Below, piece by piece: positions 29,340-51,505 of a DNA stretch of 64,000 bases. The stretch comes from Aquanectria penicillioides (lineage: Eukaryota > Ascomycota > Sordariomycetes > Hypocreales > Nectriaceae). A program made the position numbers and the translations under genes. Position 1 is the stretch's first letter. Every line of letters begins with the position of its first letter. The notes under the pieces were generated by a model. The model was not told where the DNA came from. It worked only from the letters and a program-made list of their open reading frames with translations, and did no database searches. The stretch covers positions 2,604,001 through 2,668,000 of the forward strand of contig PYIU01000009.1 in NCBI GenBank assembly GCA_003415625.1. Direction: 5' to 3'.

Positions 29340-32300
29340 ATGCACTCCGAACCATCTAATCACGGCCAAGGCCAGGGTTCTCTGGATTACCTCAACCGAA
29401 GATTACTGGCCTTCAAGATACTTCGTGGCGATGTTCCGAAAATCGCACGAGAAAAAGGCGAAAAGGCCCAGCTATGGTTGTTAGTGAATTGCATCCAGAT
29501 GTCCATCAACCGTCTATATTGCATTCCCGGATTCGGGCCGCCAGGGAATGATTTCGAATTTGATTTGCACGATCTGTGGTTCATCTACTACCAAGCCAGT
29601 TTGGAGATGCCCCCAGAGAACTCAAATCAGTATCGACTAATTTTTGAGCTCATTCAAGCACAGGCAACAGGAGCTTTGGCACTTCAAAAAGGTGCCGATG
29701 CAACAATACCAACAACATCGGACGGAACCACCTGGACAGACCTTCCATTCTTTGTGCCCGACATGACCGCGTATTGGATGGGAACCAGCGGAAACAAGTC
29801 GCGCCACCAGAGACGCTCCCTTGGACCAGTACCTTCGGGCCTCATTCTCTGATTTCGGGCCCCCGAGACCCTCGCGGTCAGGTGCAAAATCCTCTATTAC
29901 ACAACCGACATCTGAAAAGCAGCGGACGGACTACATCATCCGATTTCTTCGAGCTGGAGTTGTTATAAATGGGACACATTACAGATTCTATGGTCACAGT
30001 AGCAGCCAGCTGAGGTCTAGGTCATGCTATCTGCGTGCAGCAACCGAGAATGGAATTTCCGAACTTATTCAGATGATGGGCGACTTTTCCCCTATCAAGA
30101 CGGTTGCAAAGAAATGCAAGCGAATTGGATTAATGTTTTCTGCTGCAAGAATTGCTATGGATGTCGACACAGCAAAGGTCAAGGATATCCCAGACATTCA
30201 AAACGACGGCTACACTTTTACGGACGGCTGCGGCTTAATTGCCCCGGTATTTGCTCAAAACCTAGCAAGGCGGCTTCGAATTGTGTTTCGCGACCGGAGA
30301 TACACGCCCTCGGTATATCAGATCAGATATATGGGATACAAGGGGGTTGTGACCCAAGACCCGACAATGGCGAAGCAAGAGCACTGGCTGAAGATGAGGA
30401 ACTCCATGAAAAAATTTAGCTGCGGCGATGACAACTCTTTCTCTGTGGTTGAGTATTCAAAGGTAATTTTTCTCATACTAGTACGCCATAGACTTACAAA
30501 GTGCTAGCCATACTCGTTCGGACACCTCAACGACGAAATCGTTCTGATTTGCATGCTCTTGGTATCGATCGGAGGGTTCTCCTACGCAAGCAGCAAGAGC
30601 ATTTGAACTTTCTCTATCAGGCAGACAAGGACCCGATCGTGGCATTTCGGTTCCTGTGTTATCTGAACAAACTTGATTTGGCTGAAAAAGTTATCCTTTC
30701 CTCTCTTAACTCTGTTCGGGACAGTGTCCGTAAACACGCCAACGAAGAATACCTCAAAATGTCGAACAAGAATGCAAAGCAAAAGTGCAGAATCCTAATT
30801 CCAGAATCCAGGCTGCTCTTCGGCGTCTGTGATGCTTGGGGAGTCCTGAAAGAGGGCCAATGTGCCATCAAAGTCACCAAGGAAGGTAATGGGCAACCCT
30901 ATGCATTGAAAGGTACTCAAGCCTTGGTCACAAGAAACCCCTGTTTGCACCCAGGAGACCTTCAGAAATTCGAGGTTGTGGAGCGTCCGGAGCTTGCTCA
31001 CTTAGTGGACTGCATCGTTTTTCCAGCACAGGGGAAGCGTCCTGCGGCAGACTTGATGTCTGGCGGTGACCTTGACGGGGACAAATGTGAGTTTCCAGAC
31101 AAGCAGACCAAGAATATTACTGAAACTGTGACAATTGATAGTCTTTGTATGCTGGGATTCGGAAATAATCCCTTCCACCCTTTCGACAGCAGCAGCCTAT
31201 CCCGCTGTGACAGAAGTTATTCACCTCAAACCTACCATTACTGATGACGACAGACTGGTCTACTTTGCCAAGTACAACAACAAGGCGGTCGGGAGAATCA
31301 AGAATCTTCATTTGAAATGGGCCAAGGCAAAGGGCATAATGTGCCCAGAATGCCAGCAGCTAAACAGGCTATACTCCCAGTGCCTCGATGGACACCAACT
31401 CCAGCAGGACTTGAAAGAGTTTCAAAAGGTGCCGCCTCTTAAAGACGATGTAGAGTTTATTCTTGATGAGCTGCATGATGCCGCCAAGGAATTCTCGGCC
31501 GCTACCAAGAGCTCTAAAATCACCGTTATGAACTTGAACTTTGATGAGCTGGAGCTATTCCTTAGCAGAGATGACGTTGCTATCTCAGAGTTTGAGTTGA
31601 TCAAGCTGGCCTGCGAGTGGTGCCGGAAAACATCATCGTGGTTTCTAAACCTGATCCACTACTTTGATTTCAATGTTCTAACAGCGGAGGAAAAAGCGTG
31701 GGTGTTGGCTCAGATTCCGCCTTGCGAGAATGTCCCCAGCTTGGTACTAAACGCTCTGTGTTCGTCAAGTTTGATTCTAGAGTCTGAGCTCAAGCATTTC
31801 CGACTCGACTACCCGGGGATGCATTGGAAACGAGTATACAGCTCGAACGAAGACAGATTAGCCGCATTTCTTGAATCCTGCGCCAAAAGCCTAGAAATGT
31901 TTCACAAGAAACTCATCATATTTCGCCCGGATGAACGCTTAACACTGGCCATCTACATCCCTCAGCGCATTGGTCACTCGGATGACTGTATTGTCGATAC
32001 TCGAGTGCGACTCTTTGCGTTTCCGCATTCACAAGGACGAGAGAGGCAGAGTAGATTATCTCTTCCAACAAAGAAAAACTACATATTGTACTGCGATGAT
32101 ACCGTTTTCCAGCTATTCGAGGGAGAGAGGAGAAACAGTTGGATTGTCATCAAACAGGGACCCTCCGATGACAGTACTTATAGAAACCTTGCTCGGACTC
32201 AAGACAGACGAATAGAGAGACAGAAAACGCTCGATTCTAGAATCAATTTTGACTTTAGAGCCAGTATTGCTCTAGACAAGTTTAGCAAAGGTCTGCAAAC

Positions 32301-34913
32301 GCATGTTGGACGGGTGAAACGAAGTGGCATATCTGCTGCGGTGAGTATTTGACCAGAATTTGAGGAGTTGATACGAGCGTGACAGGAGATCTACGTTATC
32401 AGCAACCGAGACACGCAATCAATGCGAAGCCTGGATCTATGGGAGAGATATATAGATACCGACGAGAATCTTCCCCAGTTTAACCAAACCCCTAGACAGT
32501 ACGATGTTCCTTCTCTCAAAGCAGTCAACTGGAACCAGCAAGATCGCCTCATTGCGAAAGTGATGAACAACGACTTTTCTTTGCTGAAAGGTCTGAAGAA
32601 TTCAGAGAGACTTGGTAAGCTTTTAGAATGGCTCCTGGAAATGAATCAAAAAGGACGAATCATTCAATGCTACCAGTGTCTTTTAGAAGAAAATCACAGT
32701 GGAAATGTAAGGCGAGAAATCTTGCAAACGATGCTGAACTTTCTCAGGAGAGCCCCATATGCCTCCATAGCATTCGAGAGACTAGGTCCTTGGGCTGAGC
32801 AATCCAGAGATCTTTGTGTCCTCCTTGAGGAAAATAGTACGATTCTCCTTCGTGCTGTCATTCTCTCTGAGGTAGAAAATGGAGAACTGGTCGTTTCGCC
32901 ATTTGAAAGGATACTCCAAAATGTGTCGGGGATGAAATTTGATGACTTTTCAGCACTTGTTGAGATGATTGCGCTCACCGTCCATTCTCCTGATGTTGCA
33001 CTAGATTTACTTCTAGAATGTCTTGAGCGGCAGAGACTGCGGCTTCTCCATGGAAGTGAAGAAATGGTCCATTACTTGGTTAGAAGCACCATTTCTGTTG
33101 CTGCGGAATATATTGGTCAACGACAAGGAGAGCCTCGGGCGAGAAGTGAGCTTTTTGACATTAGACTGACCCCAGAGCCGCAATTACAACACGGAACATC
33201 AGTTGAAGTAGATTTGAGGATTGATGCGCCTGAAAATGCTCCAGCCGTCGATTCTCACGTTCGTCTCATCACCGCGAGCTCGCCTGCCAGTTCGCTTCTC
33301 GAACGGACGTATTCTGTGGATGGGATTGTGACCGAGAGTCGACCCGACCTGATTAAGATTAATATTCTGCACCCTATCCTGCCATTCTTCACAGAATGCT
33401 CCTGGAGGCTTCATCATCTGGGCTCTTTTGCGACTAAAAAGGCAATGTTGGACTCGCTTCAGTCCCTGTCGAATGTTGGACACAACGCATGCGGCGTCCT
33501 GGACCAGATTATTGGAACTCGCCCAGAACGGAGACAAAAAGCCCCCAAACAGAACATGGTGCCTGTCTCTGGCCTGAATGACAGCCAGAAACTCGCAGTG
33601 CAGATGGTGGCCGGTAATCAGTTGACCTGCGTTTGGGCTCCTTCAGGGACAGGCCAAATCGAGGTTATTGTGGCAATAATCAAAACCCTACAACTGAAAG
33701 CAAACAACACAGCACTTATAGTGGCTCCAATGCACAAAATTGTTGATCAGATCATGAGAAGTTACCTCGAAAAGGAGAGCTCCGACCTCCAACAGCTGAA
33801 GCCATTGCGGTTTTCACCCGATGTAAGTGATTACTCTTTAACATGATCTGATGCTCATATTTCTAGATACGCAATATCGGAAATGATCTTCACCAATATA
33901 CTTGCGATGTGCTCATTAATGAAGAGCTTTCTGCTGGTTCCCACGCTGTTAACAATGCTGTAAAGCATGTCAAAGCAGCGCGCGTCGTGTTTGCAACATG
34001 CGCCGAACTGGGACATAAACTTCTCCAAAAGCAGAATTTCAAGTTGGTGATCATCGTTGGGGCATCAAGATTACCAGAAGCAGCTTGTCTCATGCCTCTA
34101 ACAAAGGGCTGCCAAAGGGCTATACTGTTTGGCGATCATCAACGACCTCGGCCAACGGTGCAGCAGCTTGCGATGCCGTTGAATTTCGATGTTTCTCTCT
34201 TCGAGAGACTTTACACTAGAGATTCAATCATCCCAGGAATGGCTAGAGTAATGTTGGACAAGCAGGATCGAATTCATCCTTCAATATGCAACTTTGTTTC
34301 CCAAGAATTTTACCAGGGCAAGTTGACCTCTGTGTTGCGAGACCAAGATATGCCACTCCCACGGTCTGCTTTTCCGTGGCCAGTGGTATCAGCCAGCACT
34401 CAGAATTCAAGAATTGCCTTTATGGAATGCTCTCATGGGGAAACCTTGGGACAGGAAACAAAGCTCAACAGGGGGCAGACAGACATGTGCCTCTCAATTT
34501 GCAGGCTCCTGTGCAAAGCCAAGGCCCATAGAGGGCCTCATAGCAGTCGCGAGGTGCCATCAATAACTATTCTAACGCCTTATTTGCTCCAAGCAATGCA
34601 CCTTAAGCCGTTTGTACAAGATATCGCCAACATCCACGTCTCAGCTGTTGAAGACTTTCAAGATCGGTTGGCAGATATTGTGATTTTTGTGACATTTCGG
34701 TGCAACGAAAGCCAGGAAATTGGGATATTGAATGACAGTCGAATGATGAATGTCGTCTTGACAAGTGCTCGACTAGGATTGGTCATCGTGGGAAACAGGA
34801 TGACTCTGATGGGAAGAGAATCTGATGAAGCAAGCAGAGGACTTTGGAGGAGACTGATGGATCATGTGTGTGAGGTTTCGGCATTTGCTTCAACTGGTAC
34901 CAGCAGAAATTAG
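29340..34913 (+). CDS. Cellular RNA-dependent RNA polymerase fused to a degenerate SF1 helicase domain, with a DUF3632-like head
   Basis: Model: exons 29340-30462, 30508-31086, 31142-32340, 32386-33822 and 33867-34913 sum to 5385 nt (about 1795 codons), but the frame shifts forward near 29800 and back near 30555, the two cancelling. Domain order: residues 1-150 resemble fungal DUF3632 (WTDLPFFVPDMTAYW); from about 160 the eukaryotic RdRP core (PF05183) begins, with FTDGCGLIAP, GYKGVV, RNPCLHPGDL and the catalytic loop GGDLDGDK (31062-31085). A C-terminal RdRP region follows (AEEKAWVLAQIP). From about 33570 an SF1 UPF1/ZNFX1/Hrr1-like helicase domain follows (LNDSQKLAVQM). Its motifs are degenerate: Walker A is APSGTGQIE (no Lys), motif II is IIVGAS rather than DEAS, and motif VI is TSAR rather than TRAR. 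Expected role: dsRNA synthesis in RNA silencing. The frame breaks may be sequencing errors; a relic is the alternative. All four introns are canonical. Confidence 0.8.
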
Positions 34914-35820: not shown

Positions 35821-37223
35821 ATGATGAATACAGAAGCGACCAAGACCTACATGTTCTTCATAGATGACTCCAACATATGGGTCGAAGCCCAAAAGTTTGC
35901 CGCCTCGGGCAATAGCCACATGCCAAAGCTAGAAGGCCGCGGCCGTGACCCGCGTCTAAGAATCAACATTGGAAAATTGATCGACAGGCTCTGTAAAGGC
36001 CGCAGTCAAGGTCTTTCGTTTCTTTATGGGTCTCGCCCGCCGCCAAACGATTCGGTATGGGAAGCGTTTCGAAGGTTTCAGTTCAAGACCAAGATCTTTG
36101 ATCGCCAATACGGTAAGGAGAAGCAGGTGGATAACACCTTGGGAGCAGATCTATCCTGGCAAGCCTCTAAACTTGAGGTTGCCGCCGAGTACAGCGACAA
36201 GGCTAACCAGGAGAGAGCGAATACAATATTTGTCGTCATTTCGGGAGACCAGGATATGCTCCCCCAGTCGAGATTGCGCTGAAATGCGAGATACCAGTGG
36301 AGCTCTGGGCTTGGAAGTCGGGCATGTCAAAGAAGTACTACGACCTAAAATGCAAAAATAGCCTTCTATCTGTATCTCTTATGGACTGGATATTCGCTGA
36401 CATTTACTTCACCAATTGCTGGTCTACCCGAACTCGCGAGAAAATTGAACCAAAGCAAACGATCGTACTGTGCCAGTTTGCTGGCCCGGGCGAGGATATC
36501 AATGAATGTTTCAAAAACCTGGAATTTTTCGTCCGCGGGCAGTTTCTTCAGTGGGGCTACTTGTTCTACATAACTTCATCTAAGTCAAATGTGGAGTTGC
36601 TTGTGGAATTCCCAGACATCAACAACATCGAGCCCATCATCATCCAAGCCCGAGAGCTACTCGATGGAATGTGCAAAGTGCTTTCATGGCCCGAATCCGC
36701 AAGTTCTTCCAGCCGGAATCCTCCAGCCATGGTGGAAACTAGCAATATGTATGCACCCTTGTCAGAGGATGATGGACAAGACTCTCCCGGGGACGTGACG
36801 AAAGAAGAAACCAAACTTATGGAACCCGAAGCCAGGCCATCCCGCGCTTGGCAACCTATAGGTGGACACAAGGAAAAAGAACAGCAAGATCCAGGCAACG
36901 GCGATGACAATGACGGCTGGCAAATAGTGACTCGATCAAACCCCTTCAAAGAGAATATTCGCGACATGCGCCAAACTCAACAATGTCCTTACCGGTCCCG
37001 ATGCAGGGAAGGGGGCGATTGTGGACGATACCACACTGACGAGGAATGGGCTTTTTTTCGAAATAATCCGAATCAAAATTTCAGCCTGTGGAAAACGAAG
37101 AAGTGCACCACACCCTACTGTCGCCGTGGGAAACAATGTCGATATGCCCATTCCCTAGAAGAAGCATGGTGCCGTCATTGCCGTCAAGAGGGCCACTATT
37201 ATGAAGAATGCCAGTATAGGTAG
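35821..37223 (+). CDS. NYN-domain protein with two CCCH zinc fingers and a CCHC knuckle (one-base break at a C5 run)
   Basis: The gene appears intronless. The frame from ATG 35821 breaks at the C5 run 36261-36265: it reads QDMLPQ then stops, while one added C continues QDMLPP-VEIAL into the second frame, giving 467 residues. The N-terminal NYN (PIN-like RNase) domain has the acidic/Asn motif FFIDDSNIW near residue 12, the central KQVDNTLGADL, and SGDQD near residue 143, matching the acidic metal-binding positions of the family. The C-terminal third carries C-x5-C-x5-C-x3-H and C-x4-C-x5-C-x3-H fingers followed by a C-x2-C-x4-H-x4-C zinc knuckle, all RNA-binding types. I infer an RNA-targeted endoribonuclease or RNA-decay factor. 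It lies 0.9 kb after the RdRP-helicase gene on the same strand, which suggests a shared RNA-silencing context but does not prove it. Confidence 0.85.
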
Positions 37224-49121: not shown

Positions 49122-49781
49122 TCCGACAATCTAGCGCATAGCCCAGCTATCAGCCTCCGTGCGGTTTCATTGCAGTATTGGTGCTGGCATAAGCTGTAAA
49201 TGTAGTGTTAGTGTATGATCCTGGATGAGACAGACCTGTGCGGCTGAGCCGCTACAAAGCTGCGCCTCCTTTATTAGCGACTTGCAGTTGCCACCCAGTT
49301 TCAGAGAAGATCAATGATTGACCTGTTCTGCCTCATTATCACCACCAGCCCAGACGCCTTGCTGTGTTCATTTAGCAATGCTATCGAAAGGTGAGGGTTT
49401 CATCAATAGCACACACCATTCCTAGGATGGGACGCAACACAGATCTTAGTTGAAGAGTTACGGCTACGAACATCGAACACATTTAAAAAATAGATAAAAT
49501 AGACCAAAAACGCAGAATACATAAAACTCTACCATTCATGTTCAAGCTGGTCTGACATCAACCGTGACCTACCCTGGAGCCTTGGAAATTCGAGATCGCA
49601 CACTGGCGCAAAAAATCTGCCCCACCAAGATTTTCAGATCTCGGCATTTTGGAGGGGCAGACAAGGATTGAGCACATCTACCTTGCAGCATTTGACCGAG
49701 CAGCGACTGACTCACAGGTTGCTTCTGTACCCGAACAACAGAGAACCAGAAGAGAGACCTCAGACTCGCGTCCCCGCAGCC
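49122..49781. other. Divergent intergenic region
   Basis: About 660 bases between the outward-facing HET and ELP3 genes, the right boundary of the accessory block. The last 130 bases are probably ELP3 5' UTR. No recognised element. Confidence 0.4.
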
Positions 49782-51505
49782 ATGGCAACGGCTACGATGA
49801 TGGCTACGGTCACGGCCAAGAAGAAAGGCGGCGCTGACCTCGCTCCCGAGAGCGAGCGTTTCCTACGATGCTGCGCCGACGTCGCAAACGCCCTGATCGA
49901 GGATCATGAAGCCTCCAAGGCTGGACGCACCTCGAGGGACATCAACTTGAACACCCTGCGAAACAAGCTCTCCAAGAAGCACAAGCTCATGAACATCCCG
50001 CCCCTCACGGCCATCATCGCCTCCATCCCCGAACACTACAAGAAATACATCCTGCCCAAGCTCATTGCGAAGCCGATTCGAACCTCTTCGGGCATTGCAG
50101 TCGTGGCCGTCATGTGCAAGCCCCATCGATGCCCTCACATCGCCTACACTGGCAACATATGCGTCTACTGCCCCGGCGGCCCCGACTCCGACTTTGAATA
50201 CAGCACGCAGTCCTATACCGGATACGAGCCGACGTCGATGCGAGCCATCCGTGCCCGATATGACCCCTTCGAGCAGGCCCGAGGCCGAGTCGACCAGCTC
50301 AAGTCGCTGGGCCACTCCGTCGACAAGGTCGAGTACATCATCATGGGCGGCACCTTCATGTCGCTGCCTGAGTCATACCGAAACGAGTTCATCGCCCAGC
50401 TTCACAACGCCCTGAGCGGATATCAGACAAGCAGCGTGGACGAGGCTGTCGAGGCAGGCGAGATGAGCAACGTGAAGTGCGTTGGCATCACCATCGAGAC
50501 CCGACCTGATTACTGCCTGCAGCCCCATCTTTCCGACATGTTGAGATATGGCTGCACCCGTCTGGAGATTGGAGTCCAGTCGCTGTACGAGGACGTAGCC
50601 CGAGACACAAACCGAGGCCACACGGTTGCAGCAGTCGCAGAGACCTTTTGCCTCGCCAAGGACGCTGGTTACAAGGTGGTCAGCCACATGATGCCTGATC
50701 TGCCAAACGTCGGCATGGAGCGCGACGTAGACCAGTTCAGAGAGTACTTTGAGAACCCGGCATTCAGAACCGACGGTCTCAAGATTTACCCCACGCTTGT
50801 CATCCGTGGCACTGGTCTGTACGAGCTCTGGCGAACGGGACGGTACCAGAACTACACCCCGAACGGTCTAATCGACCTGGTTGCTAGAATTTTGGCCCTG
50901 ATCCCCCTTGGACCCGAATTTACCGTGTACAGCGAGATATCCCCATGCCTCTGGTCACCTCTGGCGTTGAGAACGGAAACCTGCGAGAGCTGGCCTTGGC
51001 CCGCATGAAAGACTTTGGAACCACCTGCCGAGATGTGCGAACTCGAGAGGTCGGCGTCAACGAAATCAAGAACAAGATCAGGCCCAACCAGATCGAGCTT
51101 GTGCGAAGAGACTATGCGGCCAACGGCGGCTGGGAAACCTTCCTCGCCTACGAGGACCCCAAGCAAGACATCCTGGTCGCTCTCCTGCGACTGCGAAAGT
51201 GTACGGAAAAGTACACGTTCCGAGAGGAACTCACCGGCCAGCCTACCAGCATGGTGCGAGAGCTTCACGTCTACGGCACCGCTGTGCCTGTCCACGCCCG
51301 CGACCCTCGCAAGTTCCAGCACCAGGGTTTCGGAACGCTGCTGATGGAGGAGGCGGAGAGGATCGCGAGGGAGGAGCACGGCAGCGACAAGCTCAGCGTC
51401 ATCTCCGGAGTCGGTGTGAGAAGTTACTACAAGAAGCTCGGATTCTGGTTGGACGGGCCCTACATGAGCAAGTGGCTTGATGGCCGGCCGCAGGAAGCTC
51501 AATGA
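49782..51505 (+). CDS. ELP3: Elongator complex catalytic subunit Elp3 (one-base break at a C5 run)
   Basis: A single exon with ATG at 49782 encodes Elp3, the radical-SAM and acetyltransferase subunit of Elongator, which modifies wobble uridines in tRNA anticodons (cm5U branch). Visible: basic N-terminus, the Fe-S motif C117-x9-C127-x2-C130, the core with [27 protein letters not shown] and [10 protein letters not shown], then the C-terminal GNAT domain with [15 protein letters not shown] and the end motif [18 protein letters not shown]. The frame breaks at the C5 run 50903-50907: after ALIP it would end in about 25 wrong residues, while one added C gives [17 protein letters not shown], the universally conserved Elp3 sequence, and leads to 574 residues. 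I judge it a sequencing error in an intact gene. The gene is intronless. Confidence 0.95.

Follow-up and report, generated by a model that had tools for sequence, protein, structure and literature searches.

The gene considered here occupies positions 29340 to 34913 of a 64,000-nucleotide (nt) window of the Aquanectria penicillioides genome (C13:2604001-2668000; C-numbers are contigs of this 53.76-Mb, 13-contig genome) and joins an RNA-dependent RNA polymerase (RdRP) to a C-terminal superfamily 1 (SF1) helicase. We consider it, with reasonable confidence, to be a degenerate copy of the type of fusion represented by FgRdRp5 of Fusarium graminearum, with a replaced start, two frame changes and a dead helicase, and likely a pseudogene today. 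An earlier note on this DNA had described an arrangement that it could not place among fungal RdRPs; the arrangement is that of the FgRdRp5 family, published in 2015 (PMC4515635, PMC11237814; statements drawn from the literature here refer to the available parts of the papers cited).

Pfam searches of the window pieces found PF05183, the RdRP domain, in two pieces (E-values of 3e-44 and 1.3e-62), followed along the gene by AAA_11 (8e-24) and AAA_12 (6e-33). The catalytic GGDLDGDK that the earlier note had seen was located at 31062-31085 (GGDLDGD, 31062-31082), and the DxDGD loop of PF05183 is intact. With introns removed, one frame is open from about 30549 to the stop codon at 34911-34913. The C-terminal AAA_11/AAA_12 helicase shares this frame with the RdRP catalytic loop and no stop codon lies between the two domains in the spliced frame (30549-34913). 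The continuity through canonical introns that had been described for the whole gene is correct from about 30549 to 34913, but not from 29340, from where there are two frame changes.

The helicase active site and uneven decay

The window helicase has the motifs APSGTGQI, VGASRLPEA, GDHQRPRPT, QDRIHPSI, VEDFQDRLADI and NVVLTSAR, for which the commonest forms in the family are GPPGTGKT, DEASQQTEP, GDHVQLRPT, QYRMHPSI, IDGFQGREADI and NVALTR, respectively. We examined 129 family entries (P0001-P0111 and P0121-P0138; P-numbers are labels for database relatives), 123 of which have a helicase match and 98 of which cover the four key columns, 96 of them without gaps. The K, D, E, and R of motifs I, II and VI are present in 94 of these 96 gap-free entries, the sole exceptions being two from Coleophoma, while the window has Q, V, G, and S. 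Neither the GKT of Walker A nor the DE of Walker B, as expected in an active SF1 UPF1-like helicase, is present in the window helicase. Judged by these positions, the window helicase is without the residues for ATP hydrolysis and, because K, D, E, and R are lost, is not expected to act as an RdRP-helicase complex would.

The decay is uneven across the domains. Taking as invariant those columns with at least 97% agreement among 80 full-length relatives (of 111 aligned), we found that the window keeps 50 of 52 and 60 of 63 invariants in the two RdRP pieces (110/115 together), 24 of 25 and 11 of 13 in the two parts of the middle region, and 66 of 89 in the helicase. For comparison, the average retention of helicase invariants among the 80 full-length controls is 98.5% (fifth percentile 93.1%); these controls were leave-one-out, with column sets that differ slightly, and include the low controls P0084 (for which no AAA_12 is listed) and P0106 (Ceratobasidium). 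Over the first RdRP piece, the second RdRP piece, the middle region and the helicase, the window is 63, 69, 53, and 49% identical to P0001, which in the same four parts is 73, 78, 65, and 74% identical to P0004 and 71, 74, 52, and 64% identical to P0013. The FastTree distance to P0014 (Hypoxylon) for the helicase is 1.64 for the window vs. 0.76-1.06 for eight other members, and for the middle region it is 1.26 vs. 1.22-1.35.

Within the helicase, the motifs have lost 17 of their 40 invariants and the remaining sequence 6 of its 49 (Fisher p=0.0015, post hoc), a p-value that is descriptive only since the motif set was drawn up from SF1 motifs after the losses were known. There are no stop codons in the 430 helicase codons; neutral decay simulated to 23 changes at the 89 invariants (two transition biases, 400 runs for each) gave a mean of 5.4-5.5 stops, with zero stops in 0.5-0.75% of runs. 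Based on the unequal decay, the motif-centered losses and the lack of a stop, helicase catalysis, with its ATP handling, probably disappeared at a time when the chain continued to be translated and folded, and the 5' end broke later. Repeat-induced point mutation (RIP) was considered as the cause of the decay and rejected: the TA/AT and (CA+TG)/(AC+GT) indices are 0.55 and 1.46 over the gene and 0.47 and 1.75 over its helicase part, vs. 0.61 and 1.30 over the window, which by the RIP thresholds is not a RIP-like pattern.

The two Coleophoma exceptions, P0080 (C. crateriformis) and P0083 (C. cylindrospora), provide a parallel. Both are fusions with lost helicase active-site residues (K to R or T, E to K, R to G) and an intact GGDLDGD; unlike the window copy, each is a full-length single protein of 1710 residues. 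In each of them 84 of 100 helicase invariants survive, as do 111 or 114 of 118 in the RdRP, and 13 of their 16 helicase changes are identical in the two proteins. Since Coleophoma belongs to the Leotiomycetes (the class of P0083 being taken from its genus), a different class from that of the window's Hypocreales clade, the losses in Coleophoma and in the window are probably independent.

The replaced start and the frame break

When the N-terminal 170 residues of ten relatives were compared with the window, RdRP homology was found to start at 29773-29791 for eight of them and at 29821 and 29902 for the other two; in a separate alignment set it starts at 29782-29785 in all four relatives. Residues 1 to about 60 of the ten relatives have no match with E <0.1 anywhere in the window. 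In place of the approximately 62 N-terminal RdRP residues is an out-of-frame fragment of a DUF3632 gene. The open reading frame (ORF) from 29340 matches PF12311 with an E-value of 2.1e-4 (22.2 bits, slightly below the cut-off of 23) as far as residue 158 (29813), and its residues 57-149 have 40% identity (E 3.9e-16) to a DUF3632 gene of the same genome at C3:624196-624474, a place that gives a near-complete PF12311 match of 121.8 bits. Similarity to DUF3632 stops at about 29786 (at 29813 for the Pfam stretch) and the RdRP homology begins at about 29780 in a different frame, which is open from 29767, following a TGA, and lacks any ATG upstream of 30073. The single frame proposed to run from 29340 was not confirmed: the ORF there is the DUF3632 fragment, and in this assembly the window copy shows neither the N-terminal residues of the family nor an unbroken reading frame. 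An indel error would not account for the loss of the N-terminal residues. The simplest history is probably a deletion that fused adjoining DUF3632 and RdRP genes, of which the junction is seen in the DNA and the deletion would be the cause.

At the second break, inside the RdRP core, P0001, P0003 and P0004 align from one residue to the next across 30549, where the window frame shifts, and the alignment to P0014 overlaps by a few residues. No intron of 40-119 nt from the donor at 30463 explains this break, which sits at a short homopolymer. The ELP3 gene of the same window (49779-51502, plus strand) has a frame shift within a C5 run at about 50903, and its halves match the Elp3 chain 6qk7_C contiguously (residues 12-367 and 366-555), so that the shift in this highly conserved gene is probably a homopolymer error of the assembly. 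Because ELP3 breaks at a C-run and 30549 is also at a homopolymer, we do not lean heavily on the 30549 break in arguing for a pseudogene.

The gene directly downstream of the fusion (35822-37223, plus strand) has two overlapping frames, which points to a break near 36261 within a run of five C. Its product, which we take to resemble an NYN/PIN-type nuclease (that part has no Pfam match), has a weak CCCH zinc-finger match below the cut-off, and the gene is a possible RNA-related neighbor.

Table 1. Features of the RdRP-helicase gene and its upstream junction, in window coordinates.
Feature	Position	Strand	Evidence or remark
DUF3632 (PF12311) gene, 5' part, truncated	29340..29786	+	Frame differs from that of RdRP; Pfam and own-genome match
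Junction zone, DUF3632 similarity to RdRP homology (family residue ~61-67), different frames	29773..29829	+	
RdRP first piece (PF05183 positions 55-252)	29785..30462	+	E 3e-44
Intron GTAATT..CTAG, 45 nt	30463..30507	+	Unspliced frame hits a stop at the intron 3' end
Second frame break, in RdRP core at short homopolymer; genomic change or assembly error	30545..30560	+	Alignment to relatives
RdRP second piece with GGDLDGD	30549..31086	+	E 1.3e-62
Intron GTGAGT..ATAG, 55 nt	31087..31141	+	GT-AG
RdRP domain end and first half of middle region	31142..32340	+	
Intron GTGAGT..ACAG, 45 nt	32341..32385	+	GT-AG
Second half of middle region, then helicase start with degenerate motif I APSGTGQI (33637-33660)	32386..33822	+	
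Intron GTAAGT..CTAG, 44 nt	33823..33866	+	GT-AG
Remainder of helicase (AAA_11/AAA_12); motifs II (VGASRLPEA, from 34056), III, IV, V and VI degenerate; terminal stop	33867..34913	+	

Relatives of the gene and type of helicase

FgRdRp5 (FGSG_09076) was described in 2015 as an RdRP followed by an ATPase/helicase in one protein (PMC4515635), and in F. fujikuroi FFUJ_03638 likewise combines an RdRP with ATPase domains (PMC11130915). Early single mutants of F. graminearum RNAi genes had no growth, pathogenicity or stress phenotype (PMC4515635). In 2024, deletion of Fgrdrp5 was reported to reduce ascospore discharge to 47.6% of wild type and to affect exonic small interfering RNAs (siRNAs); the same paper, which also names SAD-3 and Hrr1, places Fgrdrp5 on a tree branch apart from QDE-1, SAD-1 and RRP-3 (PMC11237814). 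The window gene has the RdRP-then-helicase order of FgRdRp5, as judged from published domain positions (AAA_12 at 1482-1682 in P0038 of F. poae vs. 1475-1677 as published for Fgrdrp5). It is unlike FgRdRp5 in being without about 62 N-terminal residues, in its two frame changes and in the loss of K, D, E, and R from its helicase.

A query with the whole chain returned 123 proteins at E<=0.001 of 6786 candidates, and 102 of the 120 relatives listed carry RdRP together with AAA_11 or AAA_12 (counted by hand). The names listed include Trichoderma, Fusarium, Colletotrichum, Aspergillus, Zymoseptoria and lichen fungi, as well as Ceratobasidium and Melanogaster, both of which are Basidiomycota. The best relative has 55% identity over 89% of the query. 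Closest among the matches listed, with 54-55% identity and the same domain order, are P0001 (Trichoderma gracile), P0010 (T. reesei QM6a) and P0004 (Cladobotryum mycophilum); unlike the window copy, these Trichoderma/Cladobotryum orthologues have intact helicase motifs (GPPGTGKT, DEASQQTEP, NVALTRA). In the tree of the middle region (first 15 names) the window falls with members from Trichoderma, Cladobotryum and Epichloe with a support of 1.0; in the RdRP and helicase trees it is sister to Epichloe and to the Cladobotryum entry, respectively, with low support (0.54 and 0.125). By these comparisons, the window gene is grouped with the Hypocreales members of the FgRdRp5-type fusions. The database model of one relative, P0013 (Epichloe bromicola), runs the RdRP-helicase together with a major facilitator transporter and is probably a gene-model merger.

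A search with the final 827 residues gave 58 matches, among which there was no close relative with the same decay (44-46% identity for the best eight); this search took proteins of 0.55-1.75 times the query length only and hence no full-length fusions. For the amidohydrolase encoded in the same window, the closest named sources are Dactylonectria (78%) and Neonectria (76%), among the best 120 of 1273 matches. Neither genus is among the 120 matches listed for the fusion, though both have proteins in the database, which hints that the fusion may have been lost in near relatives but falls short of proof, as many entries are unnamed or cluster representatives.

Searches of the Aquanectria genome found no second RdRP-helicase, and the DNA of the gene matches only itself. 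An intact paralog elsewhere in the genome was also considered and none was seen: the three other RdRP loci (C8:3039577, C13:939785 and C6:667447) share 28-39% identity with the family in the regions that align. A 27-residue PF05183 stretch (positions 409-435, E 4.4e-7) at C8:918882-918962 on the minus strand, far from the other RdRPs, is a possible fragment.

Among solved structures in the PDB, the nearest chains to the family helicase (query P0010) are those of NAM7/UPF1 (193.7 bits vs. 89.8 bits for ZNFX1), and the nearest to the family RdRP (same query) are plant RDR2 chains (~212 bits vs. 69.3 bits at best for QDE-1). The last exon of the window gene has NAM7 (8rd3_A, an SF1B helicase) as its nearest solved helicase, with E 1.6e-31 and 112.8 bits vs. 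70.2 bits for ZNFX1; the exon before it has no PDB match at 0.001. The ZNFX1 domain (PF25396) was not detected in the window pieces or in relatives P0001, P0038 and P0080. Of the proposed likeness to UPF1, ZNFX1 and Hrr1, then, the UPF1 part was upheld and the ZNFX1 part was not. UPF1/NAM7 is an active ATPase with no RdRP attached; unlike it, the window copy is without the Walker lysine and the DE pair.

Rdp1-Hrr1 of Schizosaccharomyces pombe and SAD-1/SAD-3 of Neurospora likewise bring an RdRP and a helicase together in RNA silencing, but as two proteins, and their helicases, Hrr1 and SAD-3, are presumably ZNFX1-type. The Aquanectria genome has a separate ZNFX1-type helicase gene at C8:4051824-4054489, resembling P0163 (which has the ZNFX1 domain), and the fusion therefore does not stand in for a missing one. 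A precedent for a decayed yet transcribed fungal RdRP pseudogene is rdr4 of Cryphonectria parasitica, which differs in belonging to the RRP-3 clade and for which the available text mentions no helicase domain (PMC4182546). A helicase-dead RdRP fusion was not found in the available text of the open-licence papers searched.

Competing explanations and what the loss would mean

Intact relatives probably copy single-stranded RNA into double-stranded RNA (dsRNA) as a substrate for Dicer, while the helicase would advance or clear the template. In the window copy, the unequal decay suggests that the helicase motor died first, at a time when selection still maintained the RdRP and the middle region and kept the frame open. 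A deletion between the DUF3632 and RdRP genes would then have removed the RdRP promoter, the start codon and about 62 codons, and the break at 30549 would be either a mutation or an assembly error.

Several observations weigh against this history of a degenerate copy. One of the 80 controls, P0084, lies below the window in helicase invariants (70.7% vs. 74.2%), and the RdRP pieces of the window are not wholly normal, with only 3 and 2 of 80 controls lower. Moreover, the FastTree distance of the RdRP to P0014 is 0.86 for the window vs. 0.53-0.71, which would fit decay of the whole gene, and P0080 and P0083 are 89, 89, and 88% identical to each other in RdRP, middle region and helicase, which would also fit a general relaxation. 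Joins from donors at 30445, 30448 and 30481 would be in frame past the 30549 break; we judged them unlikely, as conserved residues are dropped or replaced. The break itself may be an assembly error, with mutation the alternative. Finally, three canonical introns (the fourth being upstream) leave the reading frame uninterrupted between 30549 and 34913 and the RdRP invariants are well kept, so that the gene may be alive.

As a living gene it would encode an RdRP with a catalytically dead helicase scaffold, a DUF3632-derived first exon being spliced on and the 30549 break being an assembly error. We regard this as unlikely, although it is the strongest of the alternatives. It would account for the intact RdRP catalytic loop and for the fact that 43 of 49 helicase invariants outside the motifs were held, and the frame kept, while catalysis was lost; the full-length Coleophoma fusions, with their own active-site substitutions, are consistent with it, and the homopolymer break in the conserved ELP3 shows that this assembly has such breaks. 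However, DUF3632 and RdRP are in different frames, the GT-AG pairs that exist to rejoin them have weak donors, the RdRP frame is without an early ATG, and the RdRP has diverged somewhat faster than in relatives. An assembly origin for all of the oddities, with the real gene an ordinary intact FgRdRp5 ortholog, could likewise draw on the break in ELP3, on the probable one in the NYN gene and on the short homopolymer at 30549. Indels, however, can neither yield 23 in-frame substitutions at helicase invariants nor exchange the N-terminus for a DUF3632 fragment, and we consider this the least likely account of all.

The silencing-complex proposal of the earlier note, in which the gene is an active single-polypeptide counterpart of a complex such as Rdp1-Hrr1, stands insofar as both domains are in one gene, and it is consistent with the retention of both active sites in most relatives and with the action of Fgrdrp5 in exonic siRNA production (PMC11237814). 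For the window copy it is already contradicted by the loss of K, D, E, and R from the helicase. In addition, the helicase is nearer to UPF1/NAM7 than to ZNFX1, a separate ZNFX1-type helicase is encoded in the genome, and the published tree sets Fgrdrp5 apart from SAD-1 (PMC11237814); we consider it highly improbable. We prefer to regard the gene as a degenerate FgRdRp5-type copy. A broader and more speculative idea, to which we give slightly less credence than to the living gene, is that these fusions repeatedly lose the motor and keep the helicase body as an ATPase-dead scaffold serving the polymerase, both in Coleophoma and here, where the scaffold would be part of a living chimeric gene with a DUF3632-derived first exon.

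The present example also carries the lesson that the catalytic residues of fused domains should be checked before an active complex is inferred from raw sequence. While the fusion itself has been known since 2015, the loss of its motor with the polymerase half largely conserved is new and has apparently occurred twice. If true, this would mean that ATP hydrolysis by the helicase is dispensable for part of the protein's job, and would make the role of the helicase half in dsRNA synthesis by FgRdRp5-type proteins a testable question.

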